Shown here: piece by piece, positions 8,463 through 28,291 of the stretch
Layout: every line of letters begins with the position of its first letter
Numbering within the stretch: position 1 is the stretch's first letter
DNA from: Biomaibacter acetigenes
GTDB taxonomy: Bacteria > Bacillota > Thermosediminibacteria > Thermosediminibacterales > Tepidanaerobacteraceae
Assembly (NCBI RefSeq): GCF_003691585.1
Contig: NZ_CP033169.1
Location: 496,001 to 560,000 of the forward strand
Length of the DNA: 64,000 nucleotides
Direction: 5' to 3'
Made by a program: the position numbers and the translations under genes
The notes under the pieces: model-generated
Database searches by the model: none
What the model saw: only the letters and a program-made list of their open reading frames with translations
Told to the model about the DNA's origin: nothing

Positions 8463-8545
8463 CCAAAAAAAATTATAGCTCCTACCAAAAATCAGTTTTG
8501 GTAGGAGCTATTAGCCTTCCGGCACTAAAGCGAGCTCCATCGCTT
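8463..8545 (-). ncRNA. Fluoride riboswitch 1 (crcB motif) with terminator
   Basis: On the minus strand the leader reads AAGCGATGGAGCTCGCTT, then TTAGTGCC, a GGAA loop, and GGCTAATAGCTCCTACC. This matches the crcB-motif core, in which the GGAGCT loop pairs with the downstream AGCTCC to form the pseudoknot. The AGCTCCTACC strand is also the left arm of a terminator (right arm GGTAGGAGCT) followed by eight T residues, so ligand binding and termination are mutually exclusive. It precedes the MFS relic, zinc-ribbon/HEAT, dynamin-like and P-type ATPase genes. Confidence 0.93.
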
Positions 8546-8573
8546 GCATTATATATTTTACCATGCTAACAAA

Positions 8574-8654: not shown

Positions 8655-8673
8655 ATATCTAAATTATAAAATG

Positions 8674-8760
8674 TGGTGATGGAGCTCACCATAAAAGCAG
8701 AATGCTGATGGCTCCTGCTATAATGAATGTTATCTCATTAGGGCAGGAGCCTTAATTTTT
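8674..8760 (+). ncRNA. Fluoride riboswitch 2 (crcB motif) with terminator
   Basis: The leader contains GGTGATGGAGCTCACC, then ATAAAAGC, an AGAA loop, and GCTGATGGCTCCTGC. The loop GGAGC can pair with GGCTCC to form the aptamer pseudoknot. GGCTCCTGC is also the left arm of a terminator whose right arm GCAGGAGCC is followed by TTAATTTTT. It precedes the two MutS-like genes, about 90 bases before the first start codon. Confidence 0.93.
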
Positions 8761-17343: not shown

Positions 17344-17423
17344 AAAATTAAACAGCTCCTACCAGTAAAATAACATTGGTAGGAGCCATTAGCTTTCAGC
17401 ACAAGGGCGAGCCCCATCGCCTG
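17344..17423 (-). ncRNA. Fluoride riboswitch 4 (crcB motif) with terminator
   Basis: The minus-strand leader reads CAGGCGATGGGGCTCGCC, then TTGTGC, TGAAA, GCTAATGGCTCCTACC. The GGGGCT loop can pair with GGCTCC, and the same strand pairs with GGTAGGAGCT to form a terminator ahead of a T-rich stretch. It precedes the DUF6062 gene. Confidence 0.9.
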
Positions 17424-17451
17424 ATAGAAACCATTCATCGGTTTGGTTAAT

Positions 17452-17519: not shown

Positions 17520-17534
17520 AAAATCATCTTATAT

Positions 17535-17610
17535 GAGGTGATGGAGCTCACCTGAAATGCCTTGGCTGATAGCTCCTGCAATCCATCGGTATTGCAGGAG
17601 CTTTAATTTT
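17535..17610 (+). ncRNA. Fluoride riboswitch 5 (crcB motif) with terminator
   Basis: The plus-strand leader reads AGGTGATGGAGCTCACCT, GAAATGCC, TT, GGCTGATAGCTCCTGC. GGAGCT can pair with AGCTCC. AGCTCCTGCAAT pairs with ATTGCAGGAGCT to form a terminator followed by TTAATTTT. It lies 47 bases before the moxR start. Confidence 0.93.
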
Positions 17611-21115: not shown

Positions 21116-21266
21116 GGCAAGCCTCAACTTTCATCGAGATACCTTGACACTTCAGTAATAAGCGCTTATTATGAGGATAGGTTTTTGATGTTTTAATTCC
21201 TAATAGACGCTTGACATATGGATTTGTTTAAACTATGATTTAATTACAAGCAATTTTTTGTAAAAT

Positions 21267-21478
21267 TAAAGAGGCAGGCAACCAAGGGAAACCGGTGAGA
21301 TTCCGGTGCGGTCGCGCCACTGTGAAGGGGAGTGACCCCACATGATGCCACTGGAGGAAATCCGGGAAGGCGTGGGGAAACTTTGAACCTGAGCCAGGAG
21401 ACCTGAGGCCTGTGGTAAAATTGCTCCCACGCAGGATGGGCAAGGCAATACCCCCTGATTTTCGGAGCAGGGGTTTTT
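21267..21478 (+). ncRNA. Cobalamin riboswitch with terminator
   Basis: Core cobalamin elements are present in order: AGGCAGGCAACCAAGGGAAA, CCGGTGAGATTCCGGTGCGG, the box GCGCCACTGTGA, and GAGCCAGGAGACCTG. A terminator follows: CCCCTG (21452-21457) pairs with CAGGGG (21468-21473), then TTTTT. It precedes the SLH/DUF4430 protein and ECF transporter genes, giving repression when cobalamin is plentiful. Confidence 0.95.
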
Positions 21479-21514
21479 ATTTTGCAGGGTTTCAAAGTTA
21501 GCCGATGAGTAAAG

Positions 21515-21649: not shown

Positions 21650-24229
21650 GTGACATTTAAGAGAATAAACCGGCAATTGATTTCCATTATACTTGCAACA
21701 TGCCTTTTAATAAGTATATTTGTGCCCTTTATTGTGGCCGGAAAAGCCCAGGCTGCGGAAAATCCAGCGACTCTCGCTTCAACAGAACTGGCAGATAAAG
21801 CTGTGCGATTCATTAATGATAAGTTCAAGGCAGGGGAAAACATCGACGGATACGCCGCCTATGTGTTGACGGCAGCAGGAGAGGACCTTACATCGACAGA
21901 ATGGGTGTACCAGGGTGCTACATTAAAGCAAAAAATTATTGCTTCCGTTGATGCCATCCGGGATATCGGTACGGTTTCAGGCGATGTATATTATCCAAAT
22001 ACAAAAACCGTTGCCCTGGACCTTTTGGCATTAAGTAAATGGCAGGAGACAGACAGAATAAATAAACTGGCGGATTTATTGATAAAAAAACATACCGACA
22101 AAGGCTTTGAAAACAGCGTATACAGCGATATGTGGGCATATATTGCGCTGGGCGAAGCCGGCAAGATAGGTGATCTCGATGCTGCGAAAGCCAAAAGCTA
22201 TATCCTCGGAAAACAGAGCAAAACAGGGGATGTGGCCGGTGCCTGGGGAGAGACCTGGGGCGATGCATTTTTCCCAGACTTTTTGTCCACCGCCCAGGCC
22301 ATACGAGCATTGACTTACCTCCCGGGAGCAGATAGCGACAGTGAGATAAAAAGTGCGATAGATAATGGTCTTGCCTATCTCAAAAAGTTTCAGCAATCCG
22401 ACGGTAGCATCTATGTTACGGCACCATGGCCTGATGACCCGGTGGTGGACACATCGGAGGTAATTATTACCTTAAAGAAATTGGGGCAGGATCCGGCTTC
22501 CTGGAAAAACAGCCAGGGGCTTTCACCTGTGGACTACATGCTGAAAAACGCCCTGAACGTCGATGGAAGTTTTGGCCCCATGAAGAATGTTTTCGGTGCT
22601 GCCGAAGCCTTAAGCGCATTTCTCGTGATTGATGGCGAGGGTGGTTCCGGAGGAACAACTCCATCTGTACCGGTACTTCAGGAAATCAATGTTGACATAG
22701 CGGTGGTAGGCAAAGACGGTGATTTGCTTTTCGGACCGGATACCGTAATATTATCACCTGACGACAGATGGGGTCTGACGGCTCTGGGAGCTCTGGATGC
22801 GACCGGCCTTGACTATGTAGATGACGACGGTTTTGTAAAGAGCGTCGAAGGCCAGGCAAACAGCGGCATGAACGGATGGATGTATAAAGTCAACGGTAGG
22901 GTGCCGAAAGTATTAGCTTCTGAAAAGGCGGTAGAAGACGGGGATGAAGTCATCTGGTGGTACAGCACTGACTATAGCTCCAGTGGTCCTACATGGGGGA
23001 GTCTATTGGACAAAAATGGTGCTGTACTTTCTCAAGATAGTGTCCCCCAGGATTTAAAAGAACAGAACAATAGCCTTCCCACATCTTTGCAGGCCTCGGG
23101 CGAAGCTCTGGATGTGCTCGGAGATATCCAAAGAAAACTCGGGATAAAGCAGGATGATAATTTACCTCTGGCTGAAATAAGGAATAAAACAGTAGTTGTT
23201 GTAGGAAGAGATAAATCGTGGACGCTGGATGAGATCAAAGTCCTGAAAAAGCAGCTTAAGGATAACAGTGTCAATGTTTCGAAAGATGTGGCATCAGATA
23301 AGGGTGCGATCATCGCTGATGAAAAGGGAGAAGTAGCCCTGGCCGTACCTGAAGGAGCATTGAAAAAGGACGTTAAAATCACCGTGAAAGAGACAGGTTT
23401 TAACTCTCAAGGTTATTCCAGTGGTGCAAAGGCATTGCCGCAAGGTTTCCTACCCGTAACCGATGTTTATAGCTTTGGTCCAGACGGCACAACTTTTAAC
23501 ACACCGGTGACCGTTACTCTGAAGATAGCTCCGACACCCCTTATAAATCCCGATAATATAAGTATGGTATGGTTTGATGAAAAGAACGGAAAATGGGTGG
23601 CAGTTCCGGCGGTGGTTGATGTTTCCAACAATATAGTCATAGCCAGGGTAAAGCACTTTTCGGATTTTGCAGTAGCAGCTAAGGAAAGCAGGAAGGATTT
23701 TGCAGATATCGATGATTCCCATGCCTGGGCAAAGGATAATATAGAACTCCTGGCAGGAGCCGGCATATTGAACGGCATCGACGGCACCCACTTTGAGCCG
23801 CAAAGGGCGGTTACTCGGGCCGAATTTGTGAGCATGCTGGCCAGGGCTCTGAACCTCGACACAAAGATAGCCGGTAATACAGTATTTAAAGATGTAAAGG
23901 CCGACGTATGGTATGCCGGCGCTATCCAGACCGTGTCCGGCAAAAACATCATAACAGGCTATGAAGACGGCACTTTCAGGCCGAATAACACCATAACCAG
24001 ACAGGAAATGGCGGTGATTTTAACCCGAGCGCTGAAGCTTCTCCCGGCCGATAAGGCTTATGATTTTAAAGACTTAAATAAGATTTCCTCCTGGAGCAAA
24101 GACAGTGTATATTCCGCCGTATCTTACGGCCTTTTGAAAGGATTTCAAGACGGGACTTTTAAGCCTGCCGATGCGGCAAGCCGTGCCCAGTGTGCGGTGA
24201 TAATCTATAGGATATTGACCAGCGATTAA
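21650..24229 (+). CDS. SLH-anchored intrinsic-factor-like cobalamin-binding protein (predicted)
   Basis: About 859 residues from the GTG at 21650 (AAAGGGGG upstream). Domains in order: signal peptide ending near AQAAE (about 38); alpha/alpha-toroid repeats of the prenyltransferase or terpenoid-cyclase type (about 45-330; for example YLKKFQQSDGSIYVTAPW); a DUF4430 domain (about 340-455) with GMNGWMYKVNG and DEVIWWYS; a ZU5-like beta domain (about 540-670); and three SLH repeats at the C terminus that bind the cell wall. The toroid-plus-DUF4430 order is that of mammalian intrinsic factor and transcobalamin. Being first behind a cobalamin riboswitch and ahead of an ECF importer, it is probably a surface corrinoid-capture protein. 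Ligand binding is inferred, not shown. Confidence 0.88.
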   Translation: MTFKRINRQLISIILATCLLISIFVPFIVAGKAQAAENPATLASTELADKAVRFINDKFKAGENIDGYAAYVLTAAGEDLTSTEWVYQGATLKQKIIASVDAIRDIGTVSGDVYYPNTKTVALDLLALSKWQETDRINKLADLLIKKHTDKGFENSVYSDMWAYIALGEAGKIGDLDAAKAKSYILGKQSKTGDVAGAWGETWGDAFFPDFLSTAQAIRALTYLPGADSDSEIKSAIDNGLAYLKKFQQSDGSIYVTAPWPDDPVVDTSEVIITLKKLGQDPASWKNSQGLSPVDYMLKNALNVDGSFGPMKNVFGAAEALSAFLVIDGEGGSGGTTPSVPVLQEINVDIAVVGKDGDLLFGPDTVILSPDDRWGLTALGALDATGLDYVDDDGFVKSVEGQANSGMNGWMYKVNGRVPKVLASEKAVEDGDEVIWWYSTDYSSSGPTWGSLLDKNGAVLSQDSVPQDLKEQNNSLPTSLQASGEALDVLGDIQRKLGIKQDDNLPLAEIRNKTVVVVGRDKSWTLDEIKVLKKQLKDNSVNVSKDVASDKGAIIADEKGEVALAVPEGALKKDVKITVKETGFNSQGYSSGAKALPQGFLPVTDVYSFGPDGTTFNTPVTVTLKIAPTPLINPDNISMVWFDEKNGKWVAVPAVVDVSNNIVIARVKHFSDFAVAAKESRKDFADIDDSHAWAKDNIELLAGAGILNGIDGTHFEPQRAVTRAEFVSMLARALNLDTKIAGNTVFKDVKADVWYAGAIQTVSGKNIITGYEDGTFRPNNTITRQEMAVILTRALKLLPADKAYDFKDLNKISSWSKDSVYSAVSYGLLKGFQDGTFKPADAASRAQCAVIIYRILTSD

Positions 24230-24251
24230 TAAATAAAAGTTGGCGAATGAT

Positions 24252-25022
24252 ATGAAAAAGGCTGTATATGTGCTAATAGGGTTGGTTTTACTGCTGGGTT
24301 TGTTCGGCCCTATGATCTTGTCCCATTATAAAGCCCCTGACAATAATAATCCGACGCAAATAGTGGATACTGATAAAGGTGCTCCCGGAGATGCTTCAGG
24401 GGACACATCTTTAGATGTGCCGAAAAGTAGTGAAGGTAGTAAACTCCCGGATGCTACATCTAGAAAAAATTCTCAAAGTATAGCAAAGGAAAATGAATCA
24501 AACGCAGACAAGAATCAGGGGCCGCAAGAGAAGAAATCCGACGCTGGAAATGTTGCGACCTCGGTAAACAATAAGGCTGGAGGGAATGCAAAAGCTTACG
24601 ACGGCAATGCAAAACCTTCCGACGGGGAAAGTAAACAAGAATCAGTCGCAAATAATAACACCACAAACACTCAACAGGATTCCGGTTCCCTCAAGGTAGA
24701 TGTGGCAGTGGTCGGTAAGGGCGGCAAAATCATCTTCGGACCGAAGACGGTAAGCATTGCCAAAGACAACCGATGGGGGTTTACTCCCCTGGGTGCTCTG
24801 GAAGCCACAGGATTAAAATATGATGCAGGCTCTCCTTTCAATGGTTTTGTGAAAAGCATCGAGGATATGAAAAATGAAGGAATGCAGGGCTGGATGTACA
24901 AGGTAAATGACCAGGTGCCCATGGTAGGGGCTGCCGACAAGGAGCTTAATGCCGGCGACAAGGTCATCTGGTGGTACAGTGAAGGTCTGGATAAGCCGTC
25001 GCCGACATGGGACAAATTATAA
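24252..25022 (+). CDS. Membrane-anchored DUF4430 protein, predicted corrinoid-binding
   Basis: About 256 residues. An N-terminal hydrophobic helix (about 3-22) acts as an uncleaved anchor or signal. A low-complexity Asn/Ser/Lys/Asp linker of about 120 residues follows, then a C-terminal DUF4430 domain (about 150-256) with GMQGWMYKVNDQVP and DKVIWWYS, closely like the DUF4430 of the upstream protein. There is no lipobox. The long linker would let the domain reach through the wall and hand ligand from the SLH protein to the ECF importer. The gene lies 22 bases after the SLH gene, in the cobalamin operon. The start is ATG 24252 or TTG 24240. Confidence 0.82.
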   Translation: MKKAVYVLIGLVLLLGLFGPMILSHYKAPDNNNPTQIVDTDKGAPGDASGDTSLDVPKSSEGSKLPDATSRKNSQSIAKENESNADKNQGPQEKKSDAGNVATSVNNKAGGNAKAYDGNAKPSDGESKQESVANNNTTNTQQDSGSLKVDVAVVGKGGKIIFGPKTVSIAKDNRWGFTPLGALEATGLKYDAGSPFNGFVKSIEDMKNEGMQGWMYKVNDQVPMVGAADKELNAGDKVIWWYSEGLDKPSPTWDKL

Positions 25023-25050: not shown

Positions 25051-25980
25051 ATGATCGAGGATTTTTTCTACAAGGAAAAGGGTCTGTTTTTACAGACCCT
25101 GCATCCCGTTTCTGCCCTTGTTTATGTGGGCGTGATATTTATCCTTGCCCTCATGTTTACAAATCCCCTGTACCTCATAGGCCTACTTATCTGCATCGGC
25201 CTTGCGATACTGGCCGTCGGTGGATTTTCCATATGGGAATTTTATTTAAGGGGAATCATATACATGATGATCCCCATAATAGTATTAAACCCTTTAATAT
25301 CAAGGATGGGCGATACCATATTGTGGATGGGACCTACCATCCCCGTATATGGAAGGCTAATCATAACCCTTGAATCCATCTTTTTCAGCCTGGTCATGAG
25401 CATACGGCTTTTGGATGTAGTAAGCATATTCTGCCTTTATAATATCATGATACATCCTGATAAGATATTAAATATTTTTTCCAGAGTTACTTTTAAATCC
25501 GCCCTGATTTTGTCCATTGCCACCAGGATGTTTCCGGCCATGATAAAGCAACTGGCAAACATCAAGGAGGTCCAGGTGGTAAGGGGAGTGGATTTTGAGA
25601 CAGGGACTCTAAAAGAGAGGCTTAAAAAATATACCGGTTTAATAAACATTTTGGTTTTGTCTTCTCTGGAAGATTCCATGGAGATGGCCGAGGCCATGCA
25701 AGCCAGGGCTTACGGCAGCGGTAAAAGGACTTGTTATTATAAAGATTTGTTTAGGCCCCGGGATACCCTGTGCCTTGCTTCAAGCCTCATGGCTCTTCTT
25801 TTTAGCATATACGGCCAAATAAAAGGTTTTATCGTTTTTGAATTTTACCCTCGGACCGGGCAGATTATAAAGGGACCCGATACTGTGTGGATGCTGGCTA
25901 TCATTCTTGTGTTACTTTTGGTTCCGTTAATTTTAAACTGGGGGTGGCTGCATTGCCCGCATTTCAGTTCCAAAATCTAA
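25051..25980 (+). CDS. ecfT: ECF transporter transmembrane subunit EcfT
   Basis: About 309 residues with five or six hydrophobic segments. The coupling-helix motif appears as EAMQARAYGSG, the hallmark Ala-Arg-x-Gly-type signature of EcfT that contacts the EcfA ATPases; a second basic segment near VQVVRGVDFETG is also typical. The ATG at 25051 fits the family start (IEDFFYKEKGLFLQTLHP); the frame is open further upstream, overlapping the previous gene, which is less likely. The 3' end overlaps the ATPase gene by 28 bases. It forms a dedicated (group I-like) ECF importer with its neighbours. Confidence 0.92.
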   Translation: MIEDFFYKEKGLFLQTLHPVSALVYVGVIFILALMFTNPLYLIGLLICIGLAILAVGGFSIWEFYLRGIIYMMIPIIVLNPLISRMGDTILWMGPTIPVYGRLIITLESIFFSLVMSIRLLDVVSIFCLYNIMIHPDKILNIFSRVTFKSALILSIATRMFPAMIKQLANIKEVQVVRGVDFETGTLKERLKKYTGLINILVLSSLEDSMEMAEAMQARAYGSGKRTCYYKDLFRPRDTLCLASSLMALLFSIYGQIKGFIVFEFYPRTGQIIKGPDTVWMLAIILVLLLVPLILNWGWLHCPHFSSKI

Positions 25981-27665
25981 ATTATATCTACCCCGAAAGG
26001 AAAGTTCCTTCTTTGAAGAACATAGACCTTACCGTAGAAGAAGGGGAGTTTTTGCTCATAACCGGTGGGTCGGGTTCGGGCAAATCCACTTTGGCTCGGG
26101 CTATGGCAGGCCTGATACCTGATTTTTACGGCGGATATTTTAGCGGCAAGATTTTTTTTAAAGGTCAGGACATACATACCCTGGATAAGCGTAAGCTTGC
26201 AAGGCTCGTGGGCATTGTATTTCAAGACCCCGAAAAGCAGCTGGTAAAAACCTGCGTGGAGGCGGAGATAGCTTTCGGCCTTGAAAACCTGGGACTTTCC
26301 CGGCAGGAGATGACAAGGCGCATAGCGGAAGTTGCAAGTTTTCTTGATCTTACGGAAATCAAGAATGAATTCACTCAAAAACTTTCCGGCGGCCAAAAGC
26401 AAAAGCTTGCACTAGCTTCGGTGCTTGCTATGCAGCCTGAAGTACTCATCCTGGATGAACCCACATCTCAGCTTGACCCAGCAGCTGCCGAAGATTTTTT
26501 AAACCTTGCGAAAAGGCTAAATGAAGACATGGGAATGACTATAGTTTTGGTAGAACAGCGATTGGAGAGATGTTTTCACCTGGCCGACAGGGTGGTAATT
26601 ATGGAAGACGGCAAAATAAAAGCCATGGGTTCCCCTGAAAAGATCGCCCGCAAGAACCCTTTTTGGGAAAATCCCTTTTTACCTCCGGTAGCACGTTTTT
26701 TTGCCAGGGTGGGATTTTTAAAAGTCCCCGTGACATTAAAAGAGGGAAGAGAGATCCTGAATAAATCCTTGCCCGAAATTAATAAAGATACTGTTTCATC
26801 CCCGAAACCTTCAGTAGCAGGATTTAAGGAATATGCAAAGTTAAATGCTTCATCGAAAGAAATCTCTTCTATACTAGAATTAAAAAATGTCTGGTTTTCT
26901 TATCCTGACGGCAGGGAAGTGCTAAAAGATATAAATTTAAAAATAGAGGCCGGTGAGCAGGTAACCGTCATGGGAGCCAATGGAGCCGGAAAATCCACGC
27001 TTTTGAAAGTAATGGCGGGGCTTTTAAAACCGGGTCGGGGAAGCGCAATCCTTTTAGGAAAGTCTTTCGAAAGTCAGGATAAATTTAAAGGCGGCAAGGT
27101 TGCTTATCTTTCTCAAAACCCCAATGATTATCTCTTTCAGGATACCGTAGAGGAGGAACTTTTATTTACACTAAAAAATTTCAGTCTTCCCGATAACGGC
27201 AAAGTTGACGAGCTCTTAGAGAGGTTAAACCTGAAAGAATATAAGAAGGTAAACCCCAGGGATTTAAGCAGCGGTGAACGGCAAAGAGTCGCTTTAGCTT
27301 CTATCCTGGTGACCGACCCCGTACTACTTTTGCTGGATGAACCCACCCGAGGCATGGACTATGTGTTCAAGACGGATCTGGGTCGATATCTAAGCAAGCT
27401 TTGCCAAAAGGGTGTGGGTGTAGTCATGGTCACCCATGATGTGGAATTTGCCGCGGAGTATTCTCAAAGGGTAGTTTTAATGTATGACGGAAAAATAGTA
27501 AGCGACGGGTCGGTGCATGAAGTGCTGGGGAATTCCTTTTTCTACTCTACTCAGATGGCAAGGCTCTGCAAGGGATATGTCGAAGGAGTCTTAACCGTTG
27601 ATGAAGCCGTAAAAGCTTTAGAACCGCATTTCAATTCAGGGACGGTTCTTGAATTGAAAAAATAA
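25953..27665 (+). CDS. Fused double ECF ATPase (EcfA1-EcfA2 type)
   Basis: About 570 residues with two ABC ATPase domains in one chain. The first has Walker A GGSGSGKST, signature LSGGQKQK and Walker B LILDEPTSQLDP; the second has GANGAGKST, LSSGERQR and LLLLDEPTRGMD. Each keeps its D-loop and His switch region. The start is a TTG at 25953 behind GGGGTGG, overlapping the EcfT gene; an upstream in-frame start would add residues that only shadow EcfT. The fusion supplies both nucleotide-binding domains of the importer. Confidence 0.92.
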   Translation: MPAFQFQNLNYIYPERKVPSLKNIDLTVEEGEFLLITGGSGSGKSTLARAMAGLIPDFYGGYFSGKIFFKGQDIHTLDKRKLARLVGIVFQDPEKQLVKTCVEAEIAFGLENLGLSRQEMTRRIAEVASFLDLTEIKNEFTQKLSGGQKQKLALASVLAMQPEVLILDEPTSQLDPAAAEDFLNLAKRLNEDMGMTIVLVEQRLERCFHLADRVVIMEDGKIKAMGSPEKIARKNPFWENPFLPPVARFFARVGFLKVPVTLKEGREILNKSLPEINKDTVSSPKPSVAGFKEYAKLNASSKEISSILELKNVWFSYPDGREVLKDINLKIEAGEQVTVMGANGAGKSTLLKVMAGLLKPGRGSAILLGKSFESQDKFKGGKVAYLSQNPNDYLFQDTVEEELLFTLKNFSLPDNGKVDELLERLNLKEYKKVNPRDLSSGERQRVALASILVTDPVLLLLDEPTRGMDYVFKTDLGRYLSKLCQKGVGVVMVTHDVEFAAEYSQRVVLMYDGKIVSDGSVHEVLGNSFFYSTQMARLCKGYVEGVLTVDEAVKALEPHFNSGTVLELKK

Positions 27666-27691: not shown

Positions 27692-28291
27692 ATGTTCTCT
27701 ATTATTATCGCCATCATATTTTTAAGTCTCATGTATCTTAGCTTTGAGAAGAGTCATGTCTCTTCTAAAGAGGTGGCCCTTACTGCAGTCCTGGGAACGG
27801 TAGCCGCCATGGGGCGCATAGCCTTTGCCGCACTGCCAAACATCCAGGCTGCTACCTTTATAATCATCGTGGCAGGTTCGGTCATGGGCTGGAGGGCGGG
27901 TTTTGTGGTGGGAGCCACCGCCGCACTGGTATCAAACTTCTTTTTAGGCCAGGGACCCTGGACTATATGGCAGATGCTGGCCTGGGGGATGGCCGGGGCC
28001 TCGGCTGCCATCTTAAAAAGAACATTTCCAGACATCGGCAGGGCCGGGATGACGGTTTTTTGCTTTTTATGGGGATATTTTTTTGGATGGATTATGAACC
28101 TGTGGTACTGGTCTGCTTTTATAAGGCCCCTCAGCATAAAGTCCTTTATGGCCGCCTGCCTTGCGAGCTTCTGGTTCGACAGTTTTCATGCCGTCGGGAA
28201 TGCAATCTTATATCTTTGCTTTGGTGTAAGTTTCACAAAAATATTAAAGCGTTTCCACCGCAGATTAAAGGTAACCGTATATTATGAGTAA
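27692..28291 (+). CDS. ECF transporter S component, predicted cobalamin type
   Basis: About 199 residues with six hydrophobic segments. The N-terminal helix carries an Ala/Gly-rich face with GTVAAMGRIAFAALPNIQ, followed by VMGWRAGFVVGA; S components bind EcfT through helix 1 and the ligand through loops. It is the last main gene of the cobalamin-riboswitch operon, so cobalamin or another corrinoid is the likely substrate. The specificity is inferred from regulation and the DUF4430 partners. It could be functionally like CbrT, but I cannot verify orthology. Confidence 0.85.
   Translation: MFSIIIAIIFLSLMYLSFEKSHVSSKEVALTAVLGTVAAMGRIAFAALPNIQAATFIIIVAGSVMGWRAGFVVGATAALVSNFFLGQGPWTIWQMLAWGMAGASAAILKRTFPDIGRAGMTVFCFLWGYFFGWIMNLWYWSAFIRPLSIKSFMAACLASFWFDSFHAVGNAILYLCFGVSFTKILKRFHRRLKVTVYYE

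Follow-up and report, generated by a model that had tools for sequence, protein, structure and literature searches.

A probable corrinoid-scavenging operon of Biomaibacter acetigenes encodes a wall-anchored protein with the predicted fold of vertebrate B12 carriers

Little is known of the means by which Gram-positive bacteria take hold of scarce corrinoids outside the membrane, a question on which an operon of Biomaibacter acetigenes bears. We examined positions 21650–25022 of a 64,000-nucleotide (nt) window, which is the whole stretch of DNA analyzed, together with operon context to 28291. Behind a cobalamin riboswitch, the operon encodes, in order, a protein with SLH repeats (the SLH protein), a membrane-anchored DUF4430 protein, and the T component, double ATPase (A), and S component of an energy-coupling factor (ECF) importer. 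The gene past 28291 lies on the opposite strand, so the operon was taken to end there. We conclude, with a probability of roughly 0.8, that this operon is a scavenging system for corrinoids (vitamin B12 and its relatives). Corrinoid capture and import is very likely because the fold predicted for the SLH protein matches the B12 carriers, the S component is kin to the B12 transporter CbrT, a cobalamin riboswitch recurs upstream of related loci, DUF4430 and the S component occur together across genomes, and the presence of DUF4430 is associated with the absence of intact cbiD.

The SLH protein and its parts are as follows.
21650–24229, plus strand: wall-anchored putative capture protein of 859 amino acids (aa), with a signal peptide, toroid, DUF4430, ZU5, and three SLH repeats
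21650–21754, plus strand: signal peptide, cleaved after AQA (sequence MTFKRINRQLISIILATCLLISIFVPFIVAGKAQA, with AE following the cut)
21776–22642, plus strand: alpha/alpha-toroid of ∼12 helices (AlphaFold2 pLDDT mostly >90; fold matches)
22685–22969, plus strand: DUF4430, a transcobalamin-like beta-grasp domain (PF14478, E 4.6e-13), with a beta-hairpin insert after a helix in the model
23273–23683, plus strand: ZU5 domain (PF00791, just below the cut-off in one search and over it in another; also found by Foldseek)
23654–23662, plus strand: His-Phe-Ser motif, a predicted self-cleavage site (HF/S, the slash marking the cut) in the turn that joins the last two model strands (219–226 and 229–235)
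23693–24226, plus strand: three SLH repeats, the wall anchor (PF00395, E 4.1e-40; PDB match to the SLH domains of the S-layer protein Sap)

The ORF opens with a GTG at 21650, just downstream of the ribosome site AAAGGGGG, and stops at 24229; its 859 aa are counted from 21650, and an alternative 871-aa numbering is counted from 21614. The PF14478 scores were 49.8 bits for the SLH protein and 62.5 bits for the tethered DUF4430 protein, against a curated cut-off of 23.8. The toroid region had no match in Pfam and was recovered by a profile search, in which it matched PDB chains of squalene-hopene cyclases and prenyltransferase beta subunits. A polysaccharide pyruvyl transferase is expected where SLH anchoring occurs, and the host genome encodes one, of the CsaB type, consistent with such anchoring.

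An AlphaFold2 model of the toroid plus DUF4430 (aa 46–465, numbered from 21614, built from 19 sequences) had a mean pLDDT of 89 and consisted of a helical toroid and a beta-grasp domain. In the model, a helix (345–351) is followed by strands 356–359 and 362–366, the beta-hairpin insert diagnostic of the transcobalamin-like clade. When this model was compared with 350,542 PDB chains by Foldseek, the top 15 matches were all haptocorrin, transcobalamin, or intrinsic factor (E 3.7e-9 to 2.5e-7), aligned over ∼440 columns that cover both domains; enzymes with only the toroid (squalene-hopene cyclases and Rab geranylgeranyl transferase) ranked next, from ∼1e-5. The three vertebrate carriers contain the same two folds in the same order, and DUF4430 is the C-terminal domain of TCN proteins (PMC4350170). 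The likeness has its limits. The SLH protein is only 11–16% identical to the vertebrate carriers, it is anchored to the wall by its three SLH repeats, and it has gained ZU5 and SLH; whereas the vertebrate proteins are soluble, secreted, and taken up by receptors, the SLH protein could work similarly but is not a soluble carrier. An earlier note on this DNA, made from the letters alone, had read a toroid and then DUF4430, in the order of intrinsic factor and transcobalamin, followed by SLH repeats for wall anchoring. The order and the anchoring are both supported, but that domain list overlooked the ZU5 domain between DUF4430 and SLH.

The remaining genes of the operon are as follows.
24252–25022, plus strand: membrane-tethered second DUF4430 protein, with a transmembrane (TM) anchor, a linker of ∼120 aa, and DUF4430 (PF14478, E 5.1e-17)
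25051–25980, plus strand: EcfT/CbiQ-family transmembrane component (PF02361, E 1.9e-16)
25944–27665, plus strand: fused double ECF ATPase, EcfA–EcfA' (two ABC_tran domains; TIGR04520 and TIGR04521 above cut-off)
27692–28291, plus strand: CbrT-type ECF S component (PF12822; 6fnp_A, E 8.6e-9)

The only PDB relative of the S component by sequence was 6fnp_A, and no other solved S component matched. This structure is ECF-CbrT of Lactobacillus delbrueckii, which carries cobalamin and cobinamide (PMC5997447). The two S components are homologous over most of their length and both use an ECF module; the B. acetigenes operon differs in encoding its own module, with a fused double ATPase, and in adding two putative extracytoplasmic capture proteins. 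The tethered protein starts at ATG 24252 or TTG 24240 with a hydrophobic segment, and its linker is rich in N, S, K, D, and G. Because separate toroid and beta-domain fragments of intrinsic factor jointly still bind cyanocobalamin (PMC6257451), a stand-alone DUF4430 protein may reasonably be expected to join in binding. In the Pelotomaculum-type tethered proteins (L014 8943–9605 and L020 2182–2826), a lipobox (LLTMFGC) replaces the plain TM anchor.

Upstream of the SLH gene, the leader contains three elements.
21211–21239, plus strand: promoter-like site, TTGACA-17-TATGAT, a good sigma-70-like site matching 11 of 12 consensus positions
21234–21424, plus strand: cobalamin riboswitch aptamer, RF00174, full length (98.6 bits, E 2.1e-23)
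21452–21483, plus strand: terminator-like hairpin, CCCCTG-10 nt-CAGGGG, then TTTTTATTTT (U tract), read from the sequence

The aptamer score compares with a gathering threshold of 31.5 bits for the RF00174 covariance model. The hairpin is likely the expression platform of the riboswitch; it appears in the computed fold, in which the stretch as a whole folds no better than shuffled sequences (z −0.32). Three further features named in the earlier note were borne out by these genes and this leader: a B12 riboswitch, a second DUF4430 protein tethered to the membrane through a long linker, and a complete ECF importer, with T, fused double ATPase, and PF12822 S component all matched. Its assignment of corrinoids as the substrate gains support from the riboswitch, from the kinship of the S component with CbrT only, and from the genome-level association with cbiD loss described below.

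Scanning bacterial genomes turned up 22 relatives of the SLH protein. In most of them, the SLH gene is followed by the genes for the tethered DUF4430 protein, T, double A, and S, and this order recurs in Tepidanaerobacteraceae-type genomes, Moorella, Pelotomaculum, and elsewhere. All 17 related loci for which more than 1 kb of upstream sequence or a complete leader was available are preceded by a cobalamin riboswitch. For L015, none was found in the 500 bases before the gene, where the contig ends, and the remaining relatives are cut inside the gene. With its recurring gene order and upstream riboswitches, the arrangement is far beyond chance. Across the phylum, DUF4430 was found in 91 of 299 genomes; among 17 of these loci, hand-picked from the match list before their context was viewed, a same-strand cobalamin riboswitch lies upstream of 15 and an S component is near at least 12.

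Some relatives vary on the common plan. Tandem cobalamin riboswitches precede the operon in L012 (6535–7042), L014 (4388–4960), L021 (6522–7288), L027 (7157–7697), and L104 (3460–4011), and two tandem toroids, instead of one, precede DUF4430 in L008–L011, L013–L015, L018, L019, and L021.

Association was also seen among 26 genomes of the window's class, by Fisher tests that ignore shared ancestry: 14 genomes encode DUF4430, 14 encode the S component, and 13 encode both (p 2.7e-5). An intact cbiD was found in 5 of the 14 DUF4430-positive genomes but in 11 of the 12 DUF4430-negative ones (p 0.005, or 0.014 if the frameshifted cbiD is counted as present). The one DUF4430-negative genome lacking cbiD carries a CbrT-like S component.

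Besides this shared ancestry, several results weigh against a corrinoid-scavenging role. The domains of the model are not arranged as in the ligand-bound carriers (rmsd ∼21 Å, TM 0.39–0.46, pTM 0.68, for a ligand-free model); an open form without bound ligand could account for this, as could an uncertain model. The structural comparison with intrinsic factor that the earlier note had proposed as a check upholds fold and domain order but does not reproduce the closed, ligand-bound arrangement. DUF4430 profiles run against PDB sequences did not reach transcobalamin, and no alignment of B12-contact residues was obtained; the best PDB match of the broad DUF4430 profile was 3u7z, a bacterial "putative metal binding protein" (E 0.03). 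The host also has a cbi/cob pathway, in which cbiD and cbiM are frameshifted, and a second riboswitch locus with BtuF/BtuC-like proteins, and the operon is therefore not the sole corrinoid route.

Of the four cobalamin riboswitches in the host genome, one belongs to this operon, two form a divergent pair at the cbi cluster and at cobT, and one lies at the BtuF/BtuC-like locus, which also encodes CobU, CobS, and CbiB-like proteins (names assigned by reading the sequences). Single-base frameshifts near homopolymers interrupt both cbiD and cbiM in the cbi cluster (L029 3333–4440 and 8698–9448). Because sequencing errors are possible at such sites, a loss of B12 synthesis from this genome is suggestive only; a genome of the same genus (G005) has no cbiD. 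The host encodes proteins with B12-binding domains, which are users of the cofactor.

This metabolism bears on an unlikely alternative, in which the operon scavenges cobalt or a lower-ligand base (e.g., dimethylbenzimidazole) under B12 shortage and not complete corrinoids. B12 riboswitches also govern cobalt importers, and one precedes the host's own cbiM–cbiQ–cbiO cluster; with much of the cbi/cob pathway present, a precursor could be used. However, the S component resembles CbrT, which in its ECF complex carries cobalamin and cobinamide, and no other solved S component; the capture protein's fold matches B12 carriers; and the host already has a cbiM-type cobalt system.

It is less probable still that the SLH protein is mainly structural or adhesive, that its expression merely tracks B12 status, and that the ECF transporter imports B12 by itself. 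The L. delbrueckii ECF-CbrT does move B12 in proteoliposomes with ECF subunits alone (PMC5997447), as such a division of labor would have it. Against this stand the DUF4430 genes and the S component, which within the class tend to occur together or to be missing together (13 genomes with both, of 14 with each) and in most loci lie near one another.

We consider it very improbable that the toroid acts as an enzyme outside the cell, be it terpene-cyclase-like or glycan-active, with DUF4430 merely a carrier or adhesion module: its PDB relatives by sequence are the cyclases and prenyltransferases named above, but the cyclase DVDDTA aligns with DFLSTA in the SLH-protein toroid, so that the DXDD catalytic motif is absent, the replacement of DVDD by DFLS is conserved among relatives, and with the two-domain model the B12 carriers have E-values several orders of magnitude better than those of the enzymes. 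Activity as a terpene cyclase was rejected on the missing motif, and the earlier note's proposal, which clear enzymatic active-site residues in the toroid were to count against, is not refuted by this check.

For corrinoid scavenging, the parts suggest a sequence of events. Low intracellular cobalamin would lead the riboswitch to permit read-through, and the operon would be expressed. The SLH protein, in the cell wall, would bind and concentrate corrinoid between its toroid and DUF4430, in a manner resembling that of intrinsic factor and transcobalamin. Nearer the membrane, the tethered DUF4430 protein would present or receive the ligand, which would then be imported by the dedicated ECF transporter with its CbrT-like S, CbiQ-like T, and fused ATPases. 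We infer the order of hand-over, from wall protein to tethered protein to importer, from anchoring alone. With a riboswitch, a CbrT-related S component, and a carrier-like predicted structure in one operon, binding and uptake are readily testable.

The ZU5 domain adds a candidate mechanism. PIDD and CARD8 self-cleave at F/S and GAIN domains at HL/T, in both cases between the last two strands. An AlphaFold2 model of the ZU5 region (aa 456–695, pLDDT 86) had its best Foldseek matches in the ZU5 domains of ankyrin and UNC5b (E down to 2.0e-6), with weaker matches to GAIN domains from adhesion receptors. Of 16 aligned relatives, 14 retain HF[ST], as do 18 of 24 readable Bacillota ZU5 loci, and HFS as a chance triplet is unlikely since it occupies the same position in most relatives. 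Relative L014 has RFA at the site and is probably incapable of ZU5 cleavage. Among 26 ZU5 proteins from 299 Bacillota genomes, at least 13 have a DUF4430-type motif upstream; the SLH protein is the sole ZU5 protein of its host genome.

Autoprocessing by ZU5 was proposed for bacterial surface proteins in 2012 (PMC3482391), and NLRP1 self-cleaves at F/S (PMC8081665). The ZU5 domain of the SLH protein shares its fold and the position of HF/S with PIDD, NLRP1, CARD8, GAIN domains, and bacterial ZU5 (PMC3482391), but differs from them in its placement, with a predicted vitamin-binding module on one side and a wall anchor on the other. Rat NLRP1 also has a separate upstream catalytic histidine, 27 residues before the Ser (PMC8081665), whereas the SLH-protein ZU5 has none and the His of HFS is the sole candidate. 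The motif suggests a self-cut stalk between the capture module and the wall anchor, although conserved HFS may have a purely structural role. A tentative further step, which we regard as possible but doubtful, is that the capture protein cuts itself at HF/S and that the toroid–DUF4430 half is then held noncovalently and shed with its ligand toward the tethered protein. If true, the protein would be a bacterial vitamin carrier that cleaves itself and sits on a releasable stalk. No earlier proposal of ZU5 self-cleavage for such capture proteins was found in the literature searched.

The core idea was already proposed in 2007, and this operon is a well-supported example of that kind. Burroughs, Iyer, and Aravind proposed that toroid–SLBB surface proteins of Gram-positives scavenge B12 (PMC1796856), that they are encoded with a second paralogue and CbiO/CbiQ, and that they are the source of the animal carriers; bacteria with such systems usually lack key B12-synthesis enzymes (PMC1796856). 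Those systems, with an N-terminal toroid fused to SLBB/DUF4430, a signal peptide, a second SLBB paralogue, CbiO, and CbiQ, are arranged almost exactly as in the present operon, and both the operon and its relatives encode the CbiO, CbiQ, and second SLBB protein that mark the transcobalamin-like SLBB clade. The terms "SLH" and "S-layer" are absent from the main text of that paper, whereas the operon has SLH anchoring; the riboswitch, the CbrT-type S component, ZU5, and the SLH anchoring are examined here, and our host, in contrast to that generalization, keeps much of the B12 pathway. New here are the large-scale association with riboswitches, the relationship of the S component to an experimentally proven B12 transporter, the two-domain fold match, and a putative ZU5 stalk in which HF[ST] is conserved. 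No experimental test of the 2007 proposal of intrinsic-factor relatives was found in the literature searched; papers on DUF4430, judged by titles and abstracts, contained nothing on this system, and none combining SLH, B12, riboswitch, and ECF was found. If the present reading is true, it supports the derivation of animal B12 carriers from bacterial surface capture proteins.

Elsewhere in the window, divergent pairs of fluoride riboswitch matches, ∼100 bases apart, occur at 8495–8553 (minus strand) with 8666–8724 (plus strand) and at 17373–17430 (minus strand) with 17528–17585 (plus strand). Rather than an obvious crcB gene, these pairs adjoin MutS-like ATPase and MoxR/DUF58 genes.

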